Translations under genes and position numbers: made by a program
Source: Flavobacterium aquiphilum
Lineage (GTDB): Bacteria; Bacteroidota; Bacteroidia; Flavobacteriales; Flavobacteriaceae
DNA length: 64,000 bases
NCBI RefSeq assembly: GCF_027111335.1
Contig: NZ_CP114288.1
Coordinates: 1,860,001 to 1,924,000, forward strand
Direction of reading: 5' to 3'
Notes under the pieces: generated by a model
What the model was told of the DNA's origin: nothing
Seen by the model: only the letters and a program-made list of their open reading frames with translations
Databases searched by the model: none
Part shown: positions 27,542 through 39,127 of the stretch, piece by piece
Position numbering within the stretch: the stretch's first letter is position 1
Layout of the letters: every line of letters begins with the position of its first letter

Positions 27542-28222
27542 TTACTCAGCTAGTTTTTTAAGCTTTTGAAGGTCTTTTAAAACAATTTTTTTACCTACTA
27601 ATTCAATTAGCCCCAATTTGTTGAAATCAGATAATAAACGGATACAACTTTCGGTTGCAGTACCTATCATACTAGCCAATTCGTCTCTAGAAAGCTGAAC
27701 TTTCAGTGTTTTATCGTTATTGATGCCAAAAGTTTCGTGTAAATAAATCAAAGTTTCTGCCAAACGTTCTTTTACCGATTTTTGTGCCATATTAACCATG
27801 TGGTCGTCTGCCAATCTCAAATCGCCACAAATAGTTTTCATTACGTTCATTGAAAACTGATTGTTTTTGTCGAAAAATCCAAGTATTTCATTTTTGGGAA
27901 TAAAACAAACCTGCATATCTTCTAATGCTACGGCGCTCAAATTGGCAGGCTCTTCACTTATCATGGAGCGCTGACCCAATAGTTCACCTTTGGCAACAAG
28001 TTTAACGATTTGATCTTTTCCGTTTGGACTTAATTTGGTCAATTTACATATACCGTCCTTTACGCAAAAAATGCCGTTGACATTTTCACCTTCTTCAAAT
28101 ATGGTTTCTCCCTTTTTGATGGTTCGGGAAGTTTTGCATTCAGAAATTTTTATAAGTTCGTCTTTACTTAGCGCTTTCAAAGAGCTAAATTCCCTCACGA
28201 TACATTGCTCACATTTACTCAT
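27542..28222 (-). CDS. Crp/Fnr-family transcription regulator, probable oxygen sensor
   Basis: This 226-residue regulator has an N-terminal cyclic-nucleotide-binding-like beta-barrel (KKGETIFEEGENVNGIFCVKDG, residues about 36-57), a dimer helix, and a C-terminal winged helix with SRDELASMIGTATESCIRLLSDF. Cysteines C4 and C7 (CEQC) and C106 keep the spacing of E. coli FNR C20, C23 and C122, but the position of the third N-terminal ligand, C29 in E. coli, is Ser13 here. In the recognition helix E192 and R196 match FNR E209 and R213, while FNR Ser212 is Ile195. It diverges from the CcoI gene, and a palindrome (28262-28275) in the shared region may place it under its own control. It is the likely regulator of the cco genes and hemN; its ligand is unproved. 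Confidence 0.9.
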   Translation of the reverse strand: MSKCEQCIVREFSSLKALSKDELIKISECKTSRTIKKGETIFEEGENVNGIFCVKDGICKLTKLSPNGKDQIVKLVAKGELLGQRSMISEEPANLSAVALEDMQVCFIPKNEILGFFDKNNQFSMNVMKTICGDLRLADDHMVNMAQKSVKERLAETLIYLHETFGINNDKTLKVQLSRDELASMIGTATESCIRLLSDFNKLGLIELVGKKIVLKDLQKLKKLAE

Positions 28223-28261
28223 AATGAAATTGTATTTTCGACTACAAAGTTATAAATTTAT

Positions 28262-28275
28262 ATGATAAATATCAT
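28262..28275. promoter_or_regulatory. Fnr-type palindrome between the regulator and ccoI
   Basis: ATGATAAATATCAT is a perfect palindrome of the form TGAT-N4-ATCA. Its centre (28268.5) is 36.5 bases upstream of the last base of a -7-like element (GAATTTTG, 28298-28305) leading to ccoI, which gives an activator position near -42. On the minus strand TAACTTTG (28252-28245) is a -7 element for the regulator gene itself, so the site would overlap that promoter's -33 region and could repress it. Confidence 0.72.
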
Positions 28276-28332
28276 TGTTGTTATACAATCAATTTACGAA
28301 TTTTGTGCGTTTTTAATTTCCCCCTTTTGTTT

Positions 28333-30705
28333 ATGGAAAAAAATAATTGTTTTCATTGTGGTTTAGTAATAGAGGATAAAATTATCTTTGATGAAAAGGA
28401 ATTTTGCTGCAACGGGTGTAAAACAGTTTACGAGATATTTAGCCTAAATGATTTAACATGCTATTACGATTTTGAAAAATCACCGGGGGCAACTCCACAA
28501 GATATAAGCGGGAAGTATGATTTCTTGGATAATGAAAGTATTGTTGCAAAATTATTGGAGTTCCAAGAAGATGCAACAGCCATTATTTCATTAAGTATTC
28601 CGCATATTCATTGCAGTTCTTGTATTTGGATTTTAGAAAATTTACAAAAACTCCAAAAAGGGATTAACACTTCGCAGGTAAATTTTCCCGAAAAGAAAGT
28701 CCGAATCAATTACAATCCTGATGTCGTTTCCCTGAAAAGTATTGTTCATTTATTGAGCTCGATTGGCTATGAACCTTATATTAGTTTGGAAAATTACGAA
28801 ACAGGGAAAAGAAATATCGATAGAAGTCTGACTTATAAATTAGGTGTGGCATTCTTTTGTTTCGGGAATATTATGCTGCTTTCATTTCCTGAATATTTCG
28901 AGGTAAAAGAATATTGGTTGGATAATTATCGCCCCTTTTTCAGGTGGTTGATTTTTGCTTTGTCTTTGCCTTCTTTTTTATACTCGGCTAGCGGTTATTA
29001 TGTTTCGGCCATTAAAAGCATAAAGTCCAAAATGCTCAATATCGATATTCCTATTGCCTTGGGAATTGTTGTGATGTTTGTTCGAAGCACTTTTGATATT
29101 GTAATGGACTATGGTTCCGGTTTTTTTGACAGTTTGACCGGATTGATTTTTTTCATGTTGTTGGGAAAAATGTTTCAAATTAAAACCTATAGTTTCCTTA
29201 GTTTCGAAAGGGATTTTAAATCTTATTTTCCGATTGCCATTACCAAAATTAATGCTGACACGACAGAGGAAAGTATTCCTGTTTATGAAATTAAAAAAGG
29301 GGACCGATTATTGATCCGAAATCAGGAATTGATTCCGGTTGATGGTATTTTAATATCTGATAAAGCAGAAATTGATTATAGTTTTGTTACCGGAGAAGCC
29401 GTTCCGATTACCAAGAAATCAGGTGATAAGGTTTTCGCTGGTGGAAAGCAAATTGGAAAAGTAATCGAAATGGAAGTGTTGCATTCGGTTTCCCAAAGCT
29501 ATCTGACTCAACTTTGGAGTAATGATGTTTTCCAAAAAAGGGTAGAGCAAAAACATAAAACCATTACCGACAGTATAAGTCGTTATTTTACGCCAATACT
29601 TTTGTTGATTGCATTTGCAGGATTTGGATATTGGATATTTTTTGATGCCAATACCGCTTTCAATGTTTTTACAGCCGTACTGATTGTTGCCTGTCCTTGT
29701 GCATTGGCATTGACAGCTCCTTTTACGATGGGGAATATGCTTCGTATTTTTGGTAATAAACATTTTTACCTAAAAAATGCTTTGGTGATTGAACAATTGG
29801 CCAAAGTCGATACGGTTGTTTTTGATAAAACGGGAACTATCACCACCAATGCAAAATCGAATATTTCTTATGAAGGAAAAGTGATTGACGAATCTAATTT
29901 GGCATTATTGAAAAGTGTACTTCGTGCATCAAATCATCCTTTGAGTCGAATGTTATACGATTTTCTTCCGGAGACCAAAAGATTAAAGTTGGATTCATTT
30001 GAAGAAATAACAGGAAAAGGTATTCAGGCTGAAGTTAATGGAATTTCAATTCAAATGGGTTCTGCCAATTTTGTTGCTGAAAAAGGACAAAGCGAAATTC
30101 AGCAAACTTCTGTTCATGTAAAAATAGGAGATGAGTACTTTGGGAAATATATTTTCAACAATCAATATAGGGAAGGCTTATCTGAATTATTCAGTAAACT
30201 GAGTTCTCAATTCCAACTGAAAGTTTTGTCGGGTGACAATGAAGGAGAGCGCAGTCTATTAGAGTCAATTCTGCCCAAAGGAACCGAAATGGTTTTTAAT
30301 CAAAAACCGGAACAGAAATTGGAATTCATAAAATCATTGCAAGAACAAGGCAAAAATGTAATGATGGTTGGTGATGGACTTAATGATGCCGGTGCTTTGG
30401 CACAGAGTAATGTGGGGGTTTCTATTTCAGAAAACGTGAATGTTTTTTCGCCCGCTTGTGACGCTATTTTGGATGCAAAAGAGTTTAAAAGGCTGCATTA
30501 CTTTTTAAAGCTGTCCAAAAAATCCATAACTACAATCAAAATGAGTTTCACTTTGTCACTTTTGTATAATGTAGTTGGATTGTCTTTTGCAATTACAGGA
30601 AATCTGTTGCCATTGGTGGCTGCAATCATTATGCCGTTGAGTACCATTACGATAGTGAGTTTTGTGACAGTGATGAGTAATTATTATTCAAGGAAAATAA
30701 AATAA
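28333..30705 (+). CDS. ccoI: Copper-transporting P-type ATPase CcoI
   Basis: CcoI pumps copper across the inner membrane for assembly of the cbb3 oxidase copper-haem centre. From the ATG at 28333 the protein is 790 residues. In order it has a Cys-rich metal domain (C6, C9, C25, C26, C29, the ATPase-associated metal-binding type), a heavy-metal domain with HCSSC near residue 98, membrane helices, the actuator loop with VTGEAVP, the CPC metal site (C454-P-C456), the phosphorylation motif DKTGT at D498, and GDGLNDAGALAQSNVG. The frame opens earlier at 28303, but the ATG at 28333 starts right before the metal domain. An Fnr-type box lies 58 bases upstream. It is followed by ccoS, the usual order in Bacteroidota. 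Confidence 0.93.
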   Translation: MEKNNCFHCGLVIEDKIIFDEKEFCCNGCKTVYEIFSLNDLTCYYDFEKSPGATPQDISGKYDFLDNESIVAKLLEFQEDATAIISLSIPHIHCSSCIWILENLQKLQKGINTSQVNFPEKKVRINYNPDVVSLKSIVHLLSSIGYEPYISLENYETGKRNIDRSLTYKLGVAFFCFGNIMLLSFPEYFEVKEYWLDNYRPFFRWLIFALSLPSFLYSASGYYVSAIKSIKSKMLNIDIPIALGIVVMFVRSTFDIVMDYGSGFFDSLTGLIFFMLLGKMFQIKTYSFLSFERDFKSYFPIAITKINADTTEESIPVYEIKKGDRLLIRNQELIPVDGILISDKAEIDYSFVTGEAVPITKKSGDKVFAGGKQIGKVIEMEVLHSVSQSYLTQLWSNDVFQKRVEQKHKTITDSISRYFTPILLLIAFAGFGYWIFFDANTAFNVFTAVLIVACPCALALTAPFTMGNMLRIFGNKHFYLKNALVIEQLAKVDTVVFDKTGTITTNAKSNISYEGKVIDESNLALLKSVLRASNHPLSRMLYDFLPETKRLKLDSFEEITGKGIQAEVNGISIQMGSANFVAEKGQSEIQQTSVHVKIGDEYFGKYIFNNQYREGLSELFSKLSSQFQLKVLSGDNEGERSLLESILPKGTEMVFNQKPEQKLEFIKSLQEQGKNVMMVGDGLNDAGALAQSNVGVSISENVNVFSPACDAILDAKEFKRLHYFLKLSKKSITTIKMSFTLSLLYNVVGLSFAITGNLLPLVAAIIMPLSTITIVSFVTVMSNYYSRKIK

Positions 30706-30759
30706 CACAATATGTAGTTTTCTTATTTTTTTTCATAAATTTAACATATTGGATTAAAT

Positions 30760-30773
30760 ATGATAAATGTCAT
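30760..30773. promoter_or_regulatory. Fnr-type palindrome before ccoS and ccoNOQP
   Basis: ATGATAAATGTCAT (TGAT-N4-GTCA) has its centre at 30766.5. A perfect -7 element TACTTTTG lies at 30796-30803, its last base 36.5 from the box centre, which is the same distance as at ccoI and hemN. There is no -33 TTTG at the usual spacing, as expected for an activator-dependent promoter. Confidence 0.78.
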
Positions 30774-30826
30774 ATTTTCTTAGAAGTGATGAATTTACTT
30801 TTGTTTACTAAATATTAAGATGTCTT

Positions 30827-31000
30827 ATGAGTGTTATTTATTTATTAATCGCAATCAGTATTTTCGTTGCTATTTGCTTCTTTATCGCTTTTGTTTTTGC
30901 GGTAAAGTCAGGTCAATATGATGACGATTATACCCCATCGGTTCGAATGCTTTTTGACGATGAGTTAATTAAATCTTCCCAAAAGAAATCTGAAAATTAA
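30827..31000 (+). CDS. ccoS: Cytochrome cbb3 assembly protein CcoS
   Basis: CcoS is a small single-helix membrane protein needed to insert the cofactors of cbb3 oxidase. This 57-residue protein starts MSVIYLLIAISIFVAICFF (one membrane helix, residues about 3-25), followed by VKSGQYDDDYTPSVRMLFDDE, the family's short conserved tail with the GQYDD block. It lies between ccoI and ccoNO, starts 24 bases after the -7 element TACTTTTG and is preceded by an Fnr-type palindrome. Confidence 0.93.
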   Translation: MSVIYLLIAISIFVAICFFIAFVFAVKSGQYDDDYTPSVRMLFDDELIKSSQKKSEN

Positions 31001-31066
31001 AGGTAAATTACTCTTTAATCTTTTGATTGAATTCTGTTATAAACAACTTTAAAATCAATTATAAAT

Positions 31067-33244
31067 ATGGAAATGGAACAATTTTATTATGACAACAAAA
31101 TTGTAAAGAAGTTCATTTATGCTACCATTGTGTTTGGAGTAGTTGGGATGTTGGTGGGTCTTATATTGGCCACTATGTTCCTTTTCCCAAACATGACCGA
31201 GGGTATTTCTTGGTTAAGTTTTGGTAGGTTGAGACCTTTACATACCAATGCAGTAATTTTTGCCTTTGTAGGTAACGCAATGTTTGCGGGTATTTACTAC
31301 TCGTTGCAGCGTTTATTAAAAGCCAGAATGTACAGTGATTTCTTGAGCAACCTGAATTTTTGGGGTTGGCAATTAATTATTGTTGCTGCGGCAATCTCTC
31401 TCCCATTGGGATATACTTCGTCAAAAGAGTATGCCGAATTAGAATGGCCAATTGATATTGCCATTGCTTTAATTTGGGTAGCTTTCGGTATCAACATGAT
31501 TGGTACAATGCTAAAAAGAAGAGAGCGTCATTTATATGTTGCCATTTGGTTTTACCTAGCCACATTCATTACGGTAGCGGTATTACATATTTTTAATAGT
31601 TTGGAGTTACCGATTTCCGCTATGAAAAGCTACTCTGTTTATGCAGGGGTGCAAGATGCATTGGTGCAGTGGTGGTATGGTCATAATGCGGTTGCTTTCT
31701 TCTTGACAACGCCATTTTTAGGTTTGATGTACTATTTCGTGCCTAAAGTTGCCAATCGTCCTGTGTATTCTTATAGATTGTCCATTATCCACTTTTGGTC
31801 ATTGATATTCTTATATATTTGGGCAGGGCCTCACCACTTATTATATTCTGCTTTGCCAACTTGGGCTCAAAATTTAGGAGTTGTTTTCTCAGTAATGTTG
31901 ATTGCGCCATCTTGGGGAGGTATGATTAACGGATTGCTTACTTTAAGAGGAGTTTGGGACAAAGTACGTGAAGAACCGGTTCTGAAATTCTTTGTTGTAG
32001 CTATGACCGGTTACGGAATGGCAACTTTTGAAGGACCAATGCTTTCTCTTAAAAATGTAAATGCTATTGCCCACTATACGGACTGGATTATTGCCCACGT
32101 ACACGTTGGAGCTTTAGCTTGGAATGGTTTCATGGCGTTTGGTATCATTTATTGGTTGATTCCAAGAATGACAAAAACCACTTTATATTCTACTAAACTG
32201 GCTAATTTCCATTTTTGGGCCGGAACACTTGGAATTATATTATATGCATTGCCATTATATTTAGCTGGATTCCTTCAGGCTTCTATGTGGAAACAATTTA
32301 ACCCTGACGGAACTCTAACTTACGGTAACTTCCTTGAAACAGTTACTCAAATCATTCCGATGTATTGGATGAGAGCGATTGGGGGAACCTTGTATTTAAC
32401 AGGGATGTTAACGTTGGTTTACAATATTATTCAAACAGTTAAAGCTGGTGAAGAAGTTGAAGATGAATTGGCTGAAGCTCCGGCATTAAAAACTATCAGT
32501 TCAGGAAGACTTAAAGGAGAAAAATACCATAGCTGGTTGGAAAGAAAACCAATCAAAATGGCTGTTTTCGCGACAATCGCAATATTAATTGGTGGAATTA
32601 TTCAAATCGTTCCAACGATTATGGTGAAATCTAATATTCCGACAATTTCAAGTGTTAAACCATATACTCCTTTGGAATTAGAAGGTCGTGATTTGTATAT
32701 CCGTGAGGGTTGTGTTGGATGTCACTCTCAATCGGTTCGTCCATTTAGAAGTGAAGTGGAGCGTTATGGACCACAATCCAAAGCTGGAGAGTTTGTTTAT
32801 GACCATCCATTTTTATGGGGATCAAAACGTACAGGTCCTGATTTGTTAAGAGTTGGTGGGAAATATAACGACAACTGGCATTTTAACCACTTCTGGAGTC
32901 CACAAAGTATTTCGGCAGGTTCTATTATGCCTAGCTACAAATGGTTGTTTGACAATAAACCAATGGACATTTCTTTGACCGAAAAGAAAATGAAAGCAAT
33001 GAAGACTCTTGGTGTTCCTTATACCGATGCTCAAATTGCAAGCGGTTTGAAAGATTTAAGAGCTCAGGCAATTTCGATTGAGGAAAGTCTTAAAAATGAT
33101 CCTGACTTTGTGAAAAGTTATGATGAAAGCAAGAAAAAAGCTTTGGCTAAAGGAGAGAAATTCGTTCCGATGAACGAAAGAGAAATTGTGGCATTGATTG
33201 CTTACATTCAAAGACTGGGAACTGATATTAAAGTGAAAGAATAA
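31067..33244 (+). CDS. ccoN: Cytochrome cbb3 oxidase subunits I and II fused (CcoN-CcoO)
   Basis: This 725-residue protein joins the catalytic subunit CcoN to the mono-haem subunit CcoO. The CcoN part (residues 1-about 480) has about twelve membrane helices. Its metal-binding histidines appear in LRPLHTNAVIF near residue 60, WWYGHNAVAFF near residue 201, GPHHLLYSALP near residue 250 and IIAHVHVGALAWNGF near residue 345. The CcoO part follows an anchor helix (residues about 502-522) and has C549-V-G-C552-H553 and later SIMPSYKWLF, which holds the axial Met. The fusion is typical of Bacteroidota. It is the high-affinity terminal oxidase for low oxygen; quinol electrons reach it through cytochrome c. 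Confidence 0.95.
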   Translation: MEMEQFYYDNKIVKKFIYATIVFGVVGMLVGLILATMFLFPNMTEGISWLSFGRLRPLHTNAVIFAFVGNAMFAGIYYSLQRLLKARMYSDFLSNLNFWGWQLIIVAAAISLPLGYTSSKEYAELEWPIDIAIALIWVAFGINMIGTMLKRRERHLYVAIWFYLATFITVAVLHIFNSLELPISAMKSYSVYAGVQDALVQWWYGHNAVAFFLTTPFLGLMYYFVPKVANRPVYSYRLSIIHFWSLIFLYIWAGPHHLLYSALPTWAQNLGVVFSVMLIAPSWGGMINGLLTLRGVWDKVREEPVLKFFVVAMTGYGMATFEGPMLSLKNVNAIAHYTDWIIAHVHVGALAWNGFMAFGIIYWLIPRMTKTTLYSTKLANFHFWAGTLGIILYALPLYLAGFLQASMWKQFNPDGTLTYGNFLETVTQIIPMYWMRAIGGTLYLTGMLTLVYNIIQTVKAGEEVEDELAEAPALKTISSGRLKGEKYHSWLERKPIKMAVFATIAILIGGIIQIVPTIMVKSNIPTISSVKPYTPLELEGRDLYIREGCVGCHSQSVRPFRSEVERYGPQSKAGEFVYDHPFLWGSKRTGPDLLRVGGKYNDNWHFNHFWSPQSISAGSIMPSYKWLFDNKPMDISLTEKKMKAMKTLGVPYTDAQIASGLKDLRAQAISIEESLKNDPDFVKSYDESKKKALAKGEKFVPMNEREIVALIAYIQRLGTDIKVKE

Positions 33245-33255
33245 AAGTTAGCGTT

Positions 33256-33423
33256 ATGTTTGAGCAAATAAAACACAATATGGAAACCATTGCCGGTGTT
33301 GCAATATTTCCGATACTATCGTTGCTGATTTTCTTTTTCTTTTTTCTTGGTTTGGGCTTTTGGGTTTACTCCTATAAAAAAGAGACTATTGACGAAATTA
33401 GCCAAATCCCGTTAGAAGACTAA
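33256..33423 (+). CDS. ccoQ: Cytochrome cbb3 oxidase small subunit CcoQ
   Basis: This 55-residue protein starts MFEQIKHNMETIAGVAIFP and has one membrane helix (ILSLLIFFFFFLGLGFWVYSY, residues about 20-41), then a short charged tail KKETIDEISQIPLED. Size, topology and position between ccoNO and ccoP identify it as CcoQ/FixQ, which stabilises the interaction of CcoP with the core. It lies 11 bases after ccoNO and 26 bases before ccoP, in the same operon. Confidence 0.88.
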   Translation: MFEQIKHNMETIAGVAIFPILSLLIFFFFFLGLGFWVYSYKKETIDEISQIPLED

Positions 33424-33449
33424 TTGTACAATTTCAAAAAATATAAATA

Positions 33450-34358
33450 ATGAAAAAATTAATTCCACCATATATAAGAGTTCTTTTCATATTTTTCTCA
33501 GTCATGGGATTGATGGAATATTTTATCGACTCAGGAAATCGTCCTGCTTTTGTAAAATACCCTATGGTTGCTGTCTTTTTGTTTGTATTGCTTTTTCTTT
33601 TGATTGCAATAGAAGTAACATTGAAGGCTGTAAACACAATCACTTACACATTGTTGTCAGATGAGGAAAAAGCAAAATTAGCCCATGAGGATACTTTAAG
33701 TCTAAAAGAAAAATCTTGGTATAAAAACCTGATGCAACGTTTGACAAGAACGGTGCCGATTGAAGATGAAAAGCAATTGTTGATGGATCATGATTATGAT
33801 GGTATCAAAGAATTGGACAACAATTTACCACCATGGTGGGTGTATTTGTTTTATGCCTGTATTATTTTTGCAGTGATCTATTTGGTTCGTTACGAAATTA
33901 TGGGAGCACCGGATCAAGAAGCTGAATTAAAAAGTGAAATGGCACAGGCCAAAATTGAAGTAGCCGAGTATATGAAAACGGCTCCTGATTTGATGGACGA
34001 AAAAACAGTAACTTTACTAACAGATAAAGCTGATTTAGATAAAGGGAAAACTATTTTCGAGACCAATTGTGCGGCTTGTCATCGTGCTGATGCAGGAGGG
34101 CAAATTGGACCAAACTTAACTGACGACCATTGGATATTGGGTGGAGGGATCAAAAATATTTTCCATACTATTACAAATGGAGGTCGTGACGGAAAAGGAA
34201 TGATTGCCTGGTCTAAAAATGGATTAAAACCAAAAGAAATTCAGGCGGTTGCAAGTTATGTTATCTCATTGAGAGGAAGTAATCCAAAAGATCCAAAAGC
34301 ACCTGACGGTGAAATTTGGGTTGATGAGAACGCTCCTGCCGGTACCGCAACAAAATAA
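33450..34358 (+). CDS. ccoP: Cytochrome cbb3 oxidase subunit CcoP (single-haem form)
   Basis: CcoP carries electrons from cytochrome c to the core of the cbb3 oxidase. The 302-residue protein has two extra N-terminal membrane helices (residues about 8-26 and 37-58), the FixP-type anchor ELDNNLPPWWVYLFYACIIFAVIYLV near residue 124, and one class I cytochrome c domain with C207-A-A-C210-H211 and GMIAWSKN supplying the axial Met. Proteobacterial CcoP has two haem c sites; I find only one CxxCH here. It is followed by a hairpin and then ccoG. Confidence 0.92.
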   Translation: MKKLIPPYIRVLFIFFSVMGLMEYFIDSGNRPAFVKYPMVAVFLFVLLFLLIAIEVTLKAVNTITYTLLSDEEKAKLAHEDTLSLKEKSWYKNLMQRLTRTVPIEDEKQLLMDHDYDGIKELDNNLPPWWVYLFYACIIFAVIYLVRYEIMGAPDQEAELKSEMAQAKIEVAEYMKTAPDLMDEKTVTLLTDKADLDKGKTIFETNCAACHRADAGGQIGPNLTDDHWILGGGIKNIFHTITNGGRDGKGMIAWSKNGLKPKEIQAVASYVISLRGSNPKDPKAPDGEIWVDENAPAGTATK

Positions 34359-34380
34359 TAGTAATAATTATATAAATATG

Positions 34381-34424
34381 AAGAGCTTTATCAAAATTCA
34401 ATACTTTGAGAAAGCTCTTTTTTA
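34381..34424 (+). terminator. Hairpin between ccoP and ccoG (terminator or attenuator)
   Basis: AAGAGCTTT pairs with AAAGCTCTT, the inner TCAAA with TTTGA, followed by a run of six T residues. It sits in the middle of an otherwise continuous gene series, so it may lower expression of ccoG and the genes after it relative to ccoNOQP. Confidence 0.7.
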
Positions 34425-34440
34425 ATTTAAAAATAATAAA

Positions 34441-35859
34441 ATGTCAAGTAAACTGGACGAATCTTTCAGAGATACCATTGGAACTGTTGATAAAGAAGGC
34501 CACAGAAAGTATATTTATCCGAAAAAGCCATCGGGTAAATTTTATGATTATAGAAAATGGGTGAGCTATTTTTTATTGATCATTCTTTTTGTCAATCCAT
34601 TTATAAAAATAAATGGGAACCAATTCATGATGTTCAACGTTTTGGAACGTCGTTTTAATATTTTCAGTTTCCCTTTTTGGCCACAGGACTTTTATATTTT
34701 TGTACTGTTTATGGTCATTGGGGTTGTGTTTGTTATCTTGTTTACGGTTATTTTTGGTCGAATTTTTTGCGGTTGGATTTGTCCGCAGACGATTTTTATG
34801 GAAATGGTTTTCCGCCGTATAGAATATTGGATTGAAGGAGACAGGGGGGCGCAAATCCGTTTGCAAAAACAAGAATGGAACGGGGAAAAAATAAGAAAGA
34901 AAACTTTGAAATGGTTTATGTTTCTTGTGATTTCGTTTCTGATTGCCAATATATTTTTGGCGTATCTTATCGGTAGTGATGAATTATTTCGTTTGATTGA
35001 AGATGGGCCTTTGGCACATTCAAGCAGTTTTATTTCTTTATTGATATTCACGGGCGTTTTCTATTTTGTTTTTGCTTGGTTTAGAGAACAGGTTTGTATT
35101 ATTGCCTGTCCTTACGGAAGATTGCAAGGTGTGTTATTGGACAAAAAATCAATAAACGTTGCTTATGATTTTGTACGAGGTGAAAAAGAAGTTGGTAGAG
35201 CCAAATTTAATAAGCAGGAAGACAGGGCTGCCTCCGGAAAAGGCGATTGCATCGATTGTAAGCAATGTGTAAATGTTTGTCCGACTGGAATTGATATCCG
35301 TAACGGAGTTCAGTTGGAATGTGTAAATTGTACCGCCTGTATCGATGAATGCGATACCATAATGGAAAGTGTAGGACTGCCTAAAGGGCTTATTAGATAT
35401 GCTTCGGAAGATGAAATAGAGACTAAAGCCAAGTTTAAGTTTACTGCAAGAATGAAAGGGTACACTGCAATTTTGGTTATATTGGTTAGTGTACTCACAG
35501 GTTTATTGTTTTTAAGAACCGAAGTTGAGGCTACCATTTTGAGATTACCGGGGCAATTATATCAGCATAAAGGAGATAATATCAGTAATATATATACTTT
35601 TAAAATTATCAACAAAACCAATCATGATATCAAAGACATGAATTTTAGATTGGTTGGAATTAAAGGAACATTGAAAGTAGTTGGGGTTCAGGAATTAAAA
35701 GTTCCTATGCACGGAATGTCTAGCGGAACTATGTTTATTGAAATTAATAAGTATTTGTTGGAAAGCGACAGAACAAATCTGGAGATTGATCTGTATGAAG
35801 GGAATAAAAAAATAGAATCTACCCATACAAGTTTTTTAAGCCCGCGCAGTTTCGATTAG
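34441..35859 (+). CDS. ccoG: Cytochrome cbb3 oxidase accessory protein CcoG
   Basis: CcoG is a membrane-bound iron-sulphur protein that reduces Cu(II) for copper delivery to cbb3 oxidase. The 472 residues contain about five membrane helices and FGRIFCGWICPQTIFMEMVFRRIEYW near residue 104, where the conserved Cys pair lies. CIIACPYGRLQG follows near residue 219, then two 4Fe-4S motifs, CIDCKQCVNVCPTGID near residue 270 and CVNCTACIDECDTIM near residue 294. The C-terminal 100 residues form the FixG Ig-like domain on the periplasmic side. It follows ccoP across a hairpin and precedes ccoH. Confidence 0.94.
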   Translation: MSSKLDESFRDTIGTVDKEGHRKYIYPKKPSGKFYDYRKWVSYFLLIILFVNPFIKINGNQFMMFNVLERRFNIFSFPFWPQDFYIFVLFMVIGVVFVILFTVIFGRIFCGWICPQTIFMEMVFRRIEYWIEGDRGAQIRLQKQEWNGEKIRKKTLKWFMFLVISFLIANIFLAYLIGSDELFRLIEDGPLAHSSSFISLLIFTGVFYFVFAWFREQVCIIACPYGRLQGVLLDKKSINVAYDFVRGEKEVGRAKFNKQEDRAASGKGDCIDCKQCVNVCPTGIDIRNGVQLECVNCTACIDECDTIMESVGLPKGLIRYASEDEIETKAKFKFTARMKGYTAILVILVSVLTGLLFLRTEVEATILRLPGQLYQHKGDNISNIYTFKIINKTNHDIKDMNFRLVGIKGTLKVVGVQELKVPMHGMSSGTMFIEINKYLLESDRTNLEIDLYEGNKKIESTHTSFLSPRSFD

Positions 35860-35989
35860 GTTTAAGAGTAATCAAAAAAGACAAATAAAATAAATATTAA
35901 GATTAAGAGATGAAATCGCAATTAACAACAAGTTTGTTGCAAACAAACTCGAATAAATAAAAAGCGATACCATAAATGACCTATAACAA

Positions 35990-36463
35990 ATGAATTTTAC
36001 ATTTATGAAAATAAAAATTAATTGGGGGACTTCAATCGTGATTGCGTTCGTTCTGTTTATCAGCTTTATTATGTATTTTGTTTTAAAAGTACAGTCAGAC
36101 AGTAAGTATGACAACGAATTGGTGGTGGACGAGTATTACAAGCACGATGTCCATTTTCAGGATGAAATGGTACGAATTCAAAATGCACATGATTTAAAAG
36201 AAAAACCGGTGATTATTGTTGGTTCCAATGGTGTGACGGTTTCTTTTCCGGCAGTTTTTTCGCCAAAGGATATCAAAGGAACAGTCGCTTTATATAGAGC
36301 TTCCAATAAGAAATTTGATTTTCAAGTACCACTCGCTTTTACGGATTTAGCTTCTTTGTCTATTCCTAAGGATAAGTTTGTTGGTGGTGAATGGTACATC
36401 AATATGGAATGGAAATATAATGGTAAAGCCTATTTGACCAAACAAAAGATTTATATTAAATAA
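35990..36463 (+). CDS. ccoH: FixH/CcoH family protein
   Basis: CcoH is a single-helix membrane protein that stabilises cbb3 assembly. The 157-residue protein has one N-terminal membrane helix (INWGTSIVIAFVLFISFIMYFVL, residues about 9-31) followed by the FixH block KYDNELVVDEYYKHDVHFQDEMVRIQNA and a periplasmic beta domain ending KVY-like KAYLTKQKIYIK. The frame also has an ATG at 36005 (MKIKINWGTS), which may be the true start; most homologues I know begin this way. It lies 130 bases after ccoG. Confidence 0.86.
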   Translation: MNFTFMKIKINWGTSIVIAFVLFISFIMYFVLKVQSDSKYDNELVVDEYYKHDVHFQDEMVRIQNAHDLKEKPVIIVGSNGVTVSFPAVFSPKDIKGTVALYRASNKKFDFQVPLAFTDLASLSIPKDKFVGGEWYINMEWKYNGKAYLTKQKIYIK

Positions 36464-36577
36464 AGTTAGAGGTAGAAGTTAGAAATAAGAAGTTGTCTTA
36501 AACCTGTTTTTTGTAAGGTAATATCTTTTTTTTTAATTTTTAACTTCTAATTTCAAACTTTTAATTTCTAACCTCAA
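36464..36577. repeat. Imperfect inverted repeats of AGAAGTTAGAAAT-type words
   Basis: The left part (AGGTAGAAGTTAGAAATAAGAAGTT) and the right part (AACTTCTAATTTCAAACTTTTAATTTCTAACCTC) hold several complementary words such as GTTAGAAAT/ATTTCTAAC and AGAAGTT/AACTTCT. The gap may form a loose hairpin between ccoH and the SafE-like gene; no gene is present. Confidence 0.4.
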
Positions 36578-37279
36578 ATGCTTTACACGGCTTTTTTATT
36601 TGGTTTAATCAGTAGTTTTCACTGCATAGGAATGTGTGGTCCCATTGCTATGATGTTGCCTGTAGAACGAAATAATCCCGCAAAGAAAGTAATTCAAATC
36701 ATTACGTATCATTCAGGGAGGTTAACTGCTTATGGAAGCATAGGTTTGCTTTTTGGATTATTGGGCAGAGGTTTGTTTTTAGCAGGAATCCAACAGCAGT
36801 TGTCTATTTTTATTGGGGTAGCTATGATTTTGGTGATTTTAACTCCCGAAAAGATTTTTTCCAAATATAATTTTTCGAAACCGGTGTACGGTTGGATTTC
36901 AAAAATCAAGCAAAGTTTAGGTAGTCATTTCAAAAATAAAAGCTTCAAATCGCTTTTTATTATCGGGTTGCTTAACGGTTTTTTGCCTTGCGGAATGGTC
37001 TATGTGGCTTTGTTTGGAGCTATTGCCATGCAGAGCGCCGGTTTTGGAGTTTTGTACATGGTACTTTTTGGATTGGGAACCGTGCCTTTGATGAGTTTGG
37101 TAGTTTATATTAATTCGTTTCTGACCGTCGGCTTTCGGAATAATATTCAAAAAATTATTCCCTATGTTGGTATTGCGATAGGTATTTTGTTTATCCTAAG
37201 AGGACTGGGGCTAGGGATTCCCTATGTTTCGCCTTCCAACATGAGTTTGTTTGTACAAGAAAAAGCCAATTGTCATTAA
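36578..37279 (+). CDS. SafE/UreH-type membrane protein of the cbb3 cluster
   Basis: This 233-residue protein with about six membrane helices starts MLYTAFLFGLISSFHCIGMCGPI, where the HCIGMCGPI motif is the mark of the UreH_2 branch of the TauE/SafE superfamily. A second copy-like block FIIGLLNGFLPCGMVYVALFGAIAM lies near residue 127. Members in cco clusters are thought to help copper or haem handling during oxidase assembly; the cargo is not proved. It is the last gene of the cco series. Its final codons are part of a terminator. Confidence 0.85.
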   Translation: MLYTAFLFGLISSFHCIGMCGPIAMMLPVERNNPAKKVIQIITYHSGRLTAYGSIGLLFGLLGRGLFLAGIQQQLSIFIGVAMILVILTPEKIFSKYNFSKPVYGWISKIKQSLGSHFKNKSFKSLFIIGLLNGFLPCGMVYVALFGAIAMQSAGFGVLYMVLFGLGTVPLMSLVVYINSFLTVGFRNNIQKIIPYVGIAIGILFILRGLGLGIPYVSPSNMSLFVQEKANCH

Positions 37280-37291
37280 TTGGCTTTTTTT
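37261..37291 (+). terminator. Terminator overlapping the end of the SafE-like gene
   Basis: AAAAGCCAATT pairs with AATTGGCTTTT around a 6-base loop, followed by more T. The left arm encodes the last codons (KANCH), and the stop codon is in the stem, so it is a compact end to the cco operon. Confidence 0.88.
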
Positions 37292-37370
37292 ATGCTTTTC
37301 AAGCAAAATAAGTTTTAAAATCTAAACTCGATTTTTTAGTATGATGGCAAAAAAGCAAAATCTTTCCTTT

Positions 37371-37456
37371 TAGCCCCGACAGTAGCGAAAATCCTCTTGT
37401 CCTGTCTCGTCCCAAAAGACGAGAAGGACAAGAGATTATAGTGGATGGCGGGACAA
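37371..37456 (+). repeat. Structured intergenic repeat, first copy (plus strand)
   Basis: TAGCCCCGACAGTAGCGAAAATC precedes a strong two-part hairpin (CTCTTGTCC 37394-37402 with GGACAAGAG 37426-37434, inner TCTCGTC with GACGAGA and a CCAAAA loop), followed by ATTATAGTGGATGGCGGGACA. From memory, elements with this TAGCCC...AGCG...hairpin...AGTGGA...GCGGGA layout recur between genes of Flavobacterium; I could not check this by search. It shares the 416-base gap between the SafE-like gene and hemN with the copy at 37571-37640. Confidence 0.65.
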
Positions 37457-37570
37457 TGATTACTGAAAATGCCTAATTTTTCCTGCTCCAAAAATTAATA
37501 ATCGTATCCATGTTTAAGAGATTTTGTCGTTAGTGGATATTTTTTGATTAGACCTAACTTAAGGACGTAT

Positions 37571-37640
37571 AATAAAAAAGCGGGTACGCTTAGCACGACC
37601 CGCAGTCCCGTCTTTTGGGGCGAAGCCAAAAGCTCTCAAA
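37571..37640 (-). repeat. Structured intergenic repeat, second copy, and hemN terminator
   Basis: On the minus strand, CTTTTGG (37632-37626) pairs with CCAAAAG (37618-37612). GGGACTGCGGGT follows, and GCGGGT pairs with ACCCGC (37603-37580) before a run of T. The last hairpin is in the right place to end hemN, which finishes at 37696. The GCGGGAC/GGGACTGCGGG words suggest that this is the 3' part of the same repeat family as 37371-37456 in opposite orientation. Confidence 0.65.
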
Positions 37641-37695
37641 AAGGGTGAATTATAAATGAATTAAATCAAAATGATATTTTAAAAGTATCAATTTT

Positions 37696-39060
37696 TTAAA
37701 TAGTCATTGAAAACAGTGCCGTTTCAGGCGCTTTTCTTTTTAATCTTAAATCGAAGGCCATGCAAATGTTGCGGACATACGGTTTTCCTTCTTCAGTGAC
37801 AATGATTTTTTTGTCGCCAATAGTCAATAAACCGTCGTTTTCCATTTCTTTCAGCTGAATTAGAATATCTGGGATTTCAGAAACATAATTTGCCGAATCT
37901 TCCCAACTGGTTTCAAAATGGCACATTAGGTTCAGGATATGTCTCCTGATAATTAAATCTTCTGCAGATAATAAATGGCCTCTATAAACCGGCAATTGAT
38001 CGGTTTTTAATACTTCGTAATATTCTTCGATGGTTTTGACATTTTGAGCAAAACTGTACCAACTGTCGCTTATGGACGAAACACCTAAACCAATCATTAA
38101 TTGGGTTTTTGAGGAGCTGTAGCCCATGAAGTTTCGGTGCAATTTTTTATTGTCAAACGATTTGTATAAACTGTCTGACTTTAAGGCAAAATGATCCATG
38201 CCAATTTCGTAATACTCATTTTCAAAAAGCAATTCTTTTCCAACTTCGTATAATTTTCTTTTGGCATCATCTTTCGGAATGTCTTCATCACGGAATCCGC
38301 GTTGTCCATTTCCTTTTATCCACGGCACATGGGCGTAGCTATAGAATGCCAATCGATCAGGTTGTAGCGAGTTTGTTTTTTCAATCGTATCTATGACATC
38401 TTCTACTTCCTGAAAAGGTAAGCCAAAGATAATGTCATGTCCGATGGAGGTATAACCTATTTTTTTTGCCCAAAAAGTTACTTTGGCAACATTGTGGAAA
38501 GGTTGTATTCTGTGGATCGCTTGTTGTACTTTTTCGGAATAATCCTGAACGCCAAAACTCACTCTTCTGAAGCCCAAATCGTACAGTTTTTGCAAATGGG
38601 CAAGTGTGGTGTTATTGGGGTGTCCCTCAAAACTAAATTCAAATCCTTCGGCTTTTTCAGCAAGCGCGAATATCCCGTTTATTAAGTTTTCAAGGTTTTC
38701 TACGGAGAAAAAAGTTGGTGTCCCTCCGCCTAAATGGATTTCTTTAATTTTAGGTTTTTTCCCCAAGATATTGCGGTAAAGCGTCCATTCTTTTAGGACA
38801 GCCTCAATATATGGATTTTCGACGTAGTGGTTTTTGGTGATGCGTTTGTTGCAACCGCAAAAGGTGCACAAACTTTCGCAAAATGGAAGATGAATATATA
38901 AACTTATCCCTTCTTTGTCATTACTTTCCTGAAACGACCTTTTTAGGGTTTCTATCCAAAGTTCATTAGTAAATCCTGACTCATCCCAATAAGGAACCGT
39001 AGGATAACTAGTGTAACGAGGCCCAGGTACATTGTATTTTTGAATAAGAGAGGTTTTCAT
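37696..39060 (-). CDS. hemN: Oxygen-independent coproporphyrinogen III oxidase
   Basis: HemN is a radical SAM enzyme that makes protoporphyrinogen IX from coproporphyrinogen III without oxygen, for haem synthesis. The 454 residues match HemN rather than the shorter HemW. YTSYPTVPYWDE near residue 17 is conserved, and IHLPFCESLCTFCGC near residue 56 carries the CxxxCxxC iron-sulphur site and the following Cys typical of true HemN. HLGGGTPTF near residue 109 and IFGLPFQ come later. An Fnr-type box 54 bases upstream links it to the cco genes, whose oxidase needs haem at low oxygen. Confidence 0.96.
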   Translation of the reverse strand: MKTSLIQKYNVPGPRYTSYPTVPYWDESGFTNELWIETLKRSFQESNDKEGISLYIHLPFCESLCTFCGCNKRITKNHYVENPYIEAVLKEWTLYRNILGKKPKIKEIHLGGGTPTFFSVENLENLINGIFALAEKAEGFEFSFEGHPNNTTLAHLQKLYDLGFRRVSFGVQDYSEKVQQAIHRIQPFHNVAKVTFWAKKIGYTSIGHDIIFGLPFQEVEDVIDTIEKTNSLQPDRLAFYSYAHVPWIKGNGQRGFRDEDIPKDDAKRKLYEVGKELLFENEYYEIGMDHFALKSDSLYKSFDNKKLHRNFMGYSSSKTQLMIGLGVSSISDSWYSFAQNVKTIEEYYEVLKTDQLPVYRGHLLSAEDLIIRRHILNLMCHFETSWEDSANYVSEIPDILIQLKEMENDGLLTIGDKKIIVTEEGKPYVRNICMAFDLRLKRKAPETALFSMTI

Positions 39061-39113
39061 AATTTCGCATTTAATGTAAATGACAAAATTAAAAGGACTT
39101 TTTATAGATTAAA

Positions 39114-39127
39114 ATGATAATTGTCAT
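39114..39127. promoter_or_regulatory. Fnr-type palindrome before hemN
   Basis: ATGATAATTGTCAT (reverse ATGACAATTATCAT) has its centre at 39120.5. On the minus strand a perfect -7 element TAATTTTG ends at 39084, 36.5 bases from the centre, exactly as at ccoI and ccoS. The predicted transcript starts near 39079, about 19 bases before the ATG at 39060. Confidence 0.78.

Follow-up and report, generated by a model that had tools for sequence, protein, structure and literature searches.

We analysed a 64,000-nucleotide stretch of the Flavobacterium aquiphilum genome (contig NZ_CP114288.1, positions 1,860,001 to 1,924,000; hereafter the window), in which three Fnr-type boxes precede ccoI, ccoS-ccoNO-P and hemN with identical promoter spacing. 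We consider it probable, at about 0.72, that the Crp/Fnr-family protein encoded divergently from ccoI (27542-28222, minus strand) is an oxygen-sensing Fnr-type activator of these three transcription units, which also represses its own gene and carries a cluster on C4, C7, C53 and C106. From boxes, spacing, conservation, a cysteine pattern and a predicted fold that were obtained directly, we infer binding, activation, autorepression, the cluster and its signal as follows. At low oxygen, dimers of the regulator would occupy TGAY-N4-RTCA boxes whose centres lie at -41.5 and recruit, as class II activators, the Bacteroidota housekeeping RNA polymerase, with its -7 element TAnnTTTG, to ccoI, ccoS-ccoNO-P and hemN. 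Its binding to the box between the regulator gene and ccoI should at the same time block the regulator's own promoter (negative autoregulation). The signal would most likely be that a [4Fe-4S] cluster is lost whose ligands are C4, C7 and C106 together with C53, a residue in the beta-roll that may replace the third N-terminal cysteine of Fnr.

Spacing of boxes and -7 elements

Box 1 (ATGATAAATATCAT, 28262-28275) lies between the divergent regulator gene and ccoI, box 2 (ATGATAAATGTCAT, 30760-30773, plus strand) upstream of ccoS-ccoNO, and box 3 (ATGATAATTGTCAT, 39114-39127, minus strand) upstream of hemN. They share the form ATGAYN4RTCAT with the core TGAYN4RTCA, and no other site in the window matches ATGATAANTRTCAT exactly. 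When as many as two mismatches are allowed, the box pattern was found 18 times on the two strands, a number that none of 100 shuffles reached (mean 8.5). The associated -7 elements are GAATTTTG for ccoI (28298-28305, plus strand), TACTTTTG for ccoS (30796-30803, plus strand, spacer 22) and TAATTTTG for hemN (39091-39084, minus strand, spacer 22). At all three promoters, 36.5 bases separate the box centre from the last base of the -7 element, which bears out the original prediction of three Fnr-type boxes with one geometry. Of the -7 elements it proposed, those of ccoS and hemN both have TAnnTTTG with T at -12, but that of ccoI lacks the T at -12 and is sub-consensus, a departure that is conserved (see below).

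The box centres fall at -41.5, the class II position, because published Flavobacterium promoters put the last -7 base at -5. Published maps place the TAnnTTTG box of F. psychrophilum at -12 to -5 (PMC9723704) and describe T-12, A-11, T-8, T-7, T-6 and G-5 as nearly invariant among 241 probable promoters of F. johnsoniae (PMC6847099). The class II reading, which the original prediction had also made, is thus supported with a centre reckoned from the -7 position. The absence of a good -33 element, which had been noted as well, says little. Promoters of F. johnsoniae in general scarcely show a -33 motif (PMC6847099), and therefore its lack here is no sign of activator dependence; the ccoI promoter of the window even has a TTG shortly 3' of its box.

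The box by itself is weak and non-specific evidence: ATGAYN4RTCAT has 45 sites across the 5.05 Mb genome, compared with 26 for the reversed control. The combination with a -7 element at spacers of 10-35 is found at 11 places, compared with one in the reversed control, and seven of the 11 have spacer 22. When ccoS and hemN are left out, five of nine pairs still have spacer 22 (binomial P ~9e-6 for one given spacing of 26). Box and -7 element occur as a pair in 59 of 61 genomes of the genus; among 114 of at least 149 listed pairs, from 15 genomes, 65 have spacer 22, 25 spacer 23 and 8 spacer 21, with no other spacing seen more than three times. The exact pattern at spacer 22 gave 71 matches in 16 genomes and none in the reversed control. 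One might argue that the identical spacings reflect coincidence or the shared ancestry of one promoter instead of selection, since the boxes alone exceed their control modestly and loci within the genus are related to each other. This explanation has virtually no chance of being correct: unrelated genes within one genome share the spacing, and the counts over 16 genomes already contradict coincidence.

To place these promoters in the order, we surveyed 119 genomes, 63 of which encode a relative of CcoNO, and took 40 loci from 39 of these, spread over families (f1-f46, a grouping of our own). The resulting order set comprises 90 promoters including those of the window, after promoters with an uncovered gene start or upstream DNA had been dropped. 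The exact core and exact -7 element stand at spacer 22 in 22 of 39 ccoS promoters and 11 of 13 hemN promoters; the two remaining hemN genes (L032, L036) are both located within the cco cluster, with ccoI on one side and ccoS on the other. Other spacers at ccoS were 44 (six promoters), 10 (three), 33 or 34 (three), 23 (one) and 28 (one). A second set of 80 loci from named records, mostly Flavobacterium, was more uniform still: each of the 72 ccoS promoters that could be scored combines the exact core with exact TAnnTTTG at spacer 22, and the exact core stands upstream of ccoI in 78/78 and of the regulator in 79/80. The centres of these cco boxes are mostly A/T and start with A. A motif occurring equally often at random positions had been named as a result that would refute the regulon; instead, the spacing recurs with exact core and -7 element at ccoS in f1, f4, f7 and f13 and at hemN in f1 and f7.

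The ccoI promoter departs from this rule in a regular manner. Among the named loci, spacer 22 with TAnnTTTG was found at none of 78 ccoI promoters, as opposed to 72 of 72 at ccoS. At the same spacer, 66 of the 78 have NAnnTTTG, with G (41), A (16) or C (9) at -12, and six have GTnnTTTG; the remaining six have T at -12 but spacer 21 (three) or have spacer 23 (three, including one with T). The order set agrees, having the consensus -7 element at spacer 22 in 0/22 ccoI promoters and NAnnTTTG at that spacer in 12/22. A search of 16 genomes for A, C or G at -12 yielded 29 matches, 15 of which are ccoI by position, one in each of 15 genomes; no such match was placed at ccoI in G022, and that of G020 was assigned via its overlap with the regulator's own promoter. 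The stretch holding the ccoI -7 element is non-coding and lies on the opposite side of the box from the regulator, and we saw no other constraint on it. The off-consensus element likely keeps the output of the copper pump low and fixed relative to the oxidase. The pair of ccoI and ccoS promoters constitutes a natural experiment on the effect of the -12 base on promoter output when an activator works with a non-standard sigma factor.

The divergent regulator and its signal

The regulator has the domains cNMP_binding and HTH_Crp_2, and its predicted model adopts the two-domain Crp/Fnr fold over the whole length. The best NCBIfam model is Fnr, with 87.1 bits, for which the cut-off of 228 was not reached. 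Four cysteines (C4, C7, C53 and C106) are conserved among the orthologues. C4, C7 and C106 align with cysteines of FNR; the position of the third N-terminal FNR cysteine is not conserved, and C53 is conserved instead, so the ligand set of FNR, three N-terminal cysteines and one in the beta-roll, is not found as such. C132 was considered as a cluster ligand and rejected (Ala, Ser, Thr or Met in other orthologues), and C29 and C59 were dropped as variable. The pattern suggests a variant Fnr-type [4Fe-4S] oxygen sensor.

The regulator could alternatively sense redox state or another ligand through its thiols, by a disulfide or a metal other than iron-sulfur, and not oxygen through a [4Fe-4S] cluster. 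Oxygen sensing is open to this objection because the cysteine pattern is the sole evidence on the signal and one FNR position is missing from it, and a thiol-based oxygen response exists in the family, as reported for FixK2 (PMC12937710). We consider this explanation unlikely. Three of the four cysteines occupy FNR positions that serve as cluster ligands there, all four were lost together in the orthologues of family f5 (loci L061, L063, L064 and L065), and a paralogue family displays the reverse pattern, with the complementary third-cysteine position. A cluster-bearing oxygen sensor thus remains our preferred reading of the protein.

The regulator's own promoter has its -7 element (TAACTTTG, 28245-28252, minus strand) nine bases from box 1, which would cover positions -22 to -35. 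The distance is 7-10 bases in 67 of the 80 named loci; the element lies elsewhere in eight and is absent in five. Negative autoregulation is suggested because box 1 lies where its occupancy should block this promoter.

Target genes, other regulators and other families

The genes behind the boxes fit a micro-oxic role. The copper-type P-type ATPase gene at 28333-30705 (plus strand; Pfam E1-E2_ATPase, HMA and ATPase-cat_bd), for assembly of the cbb3 oxidase, is presumably ccoI, a name we give it from gene position and general knowledge. On the same strand follow ccoS (30827-31000; TIGR00847 above cut-off), a fused ccoN-ccoO (31067-33244; PRK14485 at 1330 bits, COX1 and FixO), ccoP (33450-34358; FixP_N, Cytochrome_CBB3), ccoG (34441-35859; Fer4_18, FixG_C), ccoH (FixH, 35990-36463; PF05751) and, at the end of the cluster, a DsbD_2-domain membrane protein (36578-37279; PF13386). 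The oxygen-independent coproporphyrinogen III oxidase gene hemN is encoded on the minus strand (37696-39060; TIGR00538 above cut-off). Such a role would agree with F. psychrophilum, in which the cbb3 oxidase and heme-synthesis enzymes are reported to be induced under oxygen limitation (PMC9723704).

The regulon had originally been described as micro-oxic, which suits the cco and hemN targets but is too narrow for the geometry. In five Flavobacterium genomes, where 30 of 31 matches were fetched for their downstream genes, the -41.5 geometry also precedes nirK (TIGR02376 above cut-off), RIC (TIGR03652 above cut-off), YceI and c-type cytochromes, and in the genome of the window it precedes YceI (L025). 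With one base more (spacer 23, centre -42.5), it stands before a U32 peptidase, a further Crp/Fnr gene and a globin, the last of these encoded by a later frame downstream of the promoter. The motif is probably shared by several regulators.

A broader version of this view is that the boxes are a common operator of several Crp/Fnr paralogues with oxygen, nitric-oxide or two-component input and that the divergent gene is not the main activator of cco and hemN. Several observations weigh against the role we assign to the divergent gene. Besides the wider range of targets at spacers 22 and 23, the genome of the window contains three more Crp/Fnr matches with E values no higher than 1e-12. Two Flavobacteriaceae genomes, G131 and G098, have no close orthologue (best relatives at 33% and 27% identity) and still keep box and spacing at ccoS; both encode a Crp protein of ~350 amino acids aligning as a receiver-Crp fusion, with the receiver confirmed by Pfam in G131 only, where the gene lies ~1 kb from ccoI. 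Families f2 and f3 retain the regulator and not a good box, which speaks against a strict rule. On the other side stands the nearly invariant exact core upstream of both ccoI and the regulator in the named loci. The cco box centres also differ from the more mixed centres of the spacer-23 group; none of this separates the binding specificities. We regard a common operator without a leading role for the divergent gene as a contender that is on balance improbable, and retain the divergent regulator as the activator.

The spacer-23 group (centre -42.5; G042, G013, G032, G040 and others, including L072, L080 and L093) comprises a globin, a small Cys-rich protein and a divergent Crp/Fnr gene and is possibly the nitric-oxide regulon of another regulator. 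Proteins of ~350-370 amino acids that align as receiver-Crp fusions occur within ~15 kb of cco on the same contig in G131, G261, G298, G305, G325 and G274, and similar ones away from cco in G098 and G257 (Pfam was run for G131 only). These fusions are a possible two-component route to the same box.

In several Flavobacterium genomes (L086, L087, L131, L132), the same box and spacing precede a gene for a 42-45 amino-acid protein with a single membrane span, which has no assigned family. The copy in the genome of the window (G000:C1:2765767-2766036; L023, L129) looks decayed, with several stops, and has kept box and -7 element. An FnrS-like small RNA behind the box at C1:2765767 was considered and rejected after an alignment with relatives pointed to this decayed gene instead; L023 also matched no Rfam family at E values up to 1. 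A match in L016 (spacer 12) was dropped as a promoter, its stretch resembling part of the same small gene. A Flavo-1 RNA (RF01705, 74 bits) is located at L016:2675-2752 (minus strand) in the window's genome.

Outside Flavobacteriaceae, the ccoS promoter often carries two boxes, at about -63.5 and -41.5 where an exact -7 element follows. We examined 19 ccoS promoters of f2, f4, f7, f13 and f14 and 16 of other Bacteroidia; the exact core was present in 16/19 and 11/16, and an RTCA half-site exactly 22 bases past the first box in 10/16 and 7/11 of these, respectively. The first box stands at spacer 44 in 6/39 promoters of the order set and in 3/38 of the class set, where spacer 45 occurs in 1/38 and the second box, read by eye, is usually degenerate. 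In f5, which may be Weeksellaceae, the boxes have spacer 43 at ccoI and spacers 32-34, or 10 to a nearer -7 element, at ccoS. They thus sit approximately one helical turn (ccoS) or two (ccoI) further upstream. Together with the loss of the four cysteines, this points to a change in both the signal and the activation class. The two reduced genomes of f16, possibly Blattabacterium (600 and 300 kb), have no regulator match; neither ccoI nor ccoS has a box in L059, and L058 has only 2-mismatch sites before a ccoI whose start was extrapolated. In 22 stretches from more distant genomes of the phylum (L269-L290), many of which are the end of ccoI, the exact core was found in L289 only, within the 140 bases examined.

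A wider history can be put forward tentatively, as a close call that leans slightly against it. Bacteroidia would own an oxygen-sensing Fnr lineage whose third ligand moved to the beta-roll (C53), and a tandem promoter (-63.5 and -41.5) would have been reduced to a single class II box in Flavobacteriaceae. Selection for a fixed, low ratio of copper pump to oxidase would keep ccoI off-consensus, and a receiver-Crp fusion could replace the sensor with the architecture unchanged.

Relation to known systems

Flavobacteriia account for a large part of the communities of the sea, soils and fresh waters, and their control by low oxygen seems to have been little described. A single gene with one box at one exact spacing yields predictions, open to test over much of the order, for genes of the oxidase, heme synthesis and denitrification. 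If the moved cysteine is a ligand, it demonstrates that the cluster site of an Fnr protein is open to rebuilding.

The cco and hemN genes are targets of the FNR type. The regulator resembles FNR of E. coli and A. fischeri in its predicted full-length fold, three cysteines at FNR positions, the Glu and Arg of the recognition helix and the class II position predicted from the -7 elements. It differs in having the conserved Cys53 in place of the third N-terminal cysteine, Ile in place of Ser in the recognition helix, the Flavobacterium box ATGAYN4RTCAT rather than the FNR box TTGATN4ATCAA, a different sigma factor and -7 element, and a score below the NCBIfam Fnr cut-off.

FixK2, FnrN and ANR control the cbb3 oxidase and hemN in Proteobacteria. 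Their targets are likewise a high-affinity oxidase, its copper ATPase and oxygen-independent heme synthesis; unlike the promoters described here, theirs are Proteobacterial. FixK2 differs further in having no cluster and a cysteine in the DNA-binding domain (PMC12937710).

Three Bacteroidota proteins belong to the same superfamily. CrpPg of P. gingivalis (2gau), the closest solved structure to the regulator, is described as effector-independent (PMC12937710), PgRsp as heme-binding (PMC6955866), and HcpR as acting on hcp with other motifs (PMC1274295). None of the three is tied to cco in the parts of these accounts cited. A Bacteroidota Fnr box for cco was not found in the open-licence literature, itself represented in part, which does not prove its absence. 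To these systems, the present analysis adds a regulator with an unusual cysteine set, an autoregulatory geometry, the ccoI rule and a wider history of tandem boxes and replacement by receiver-Crp proteins.

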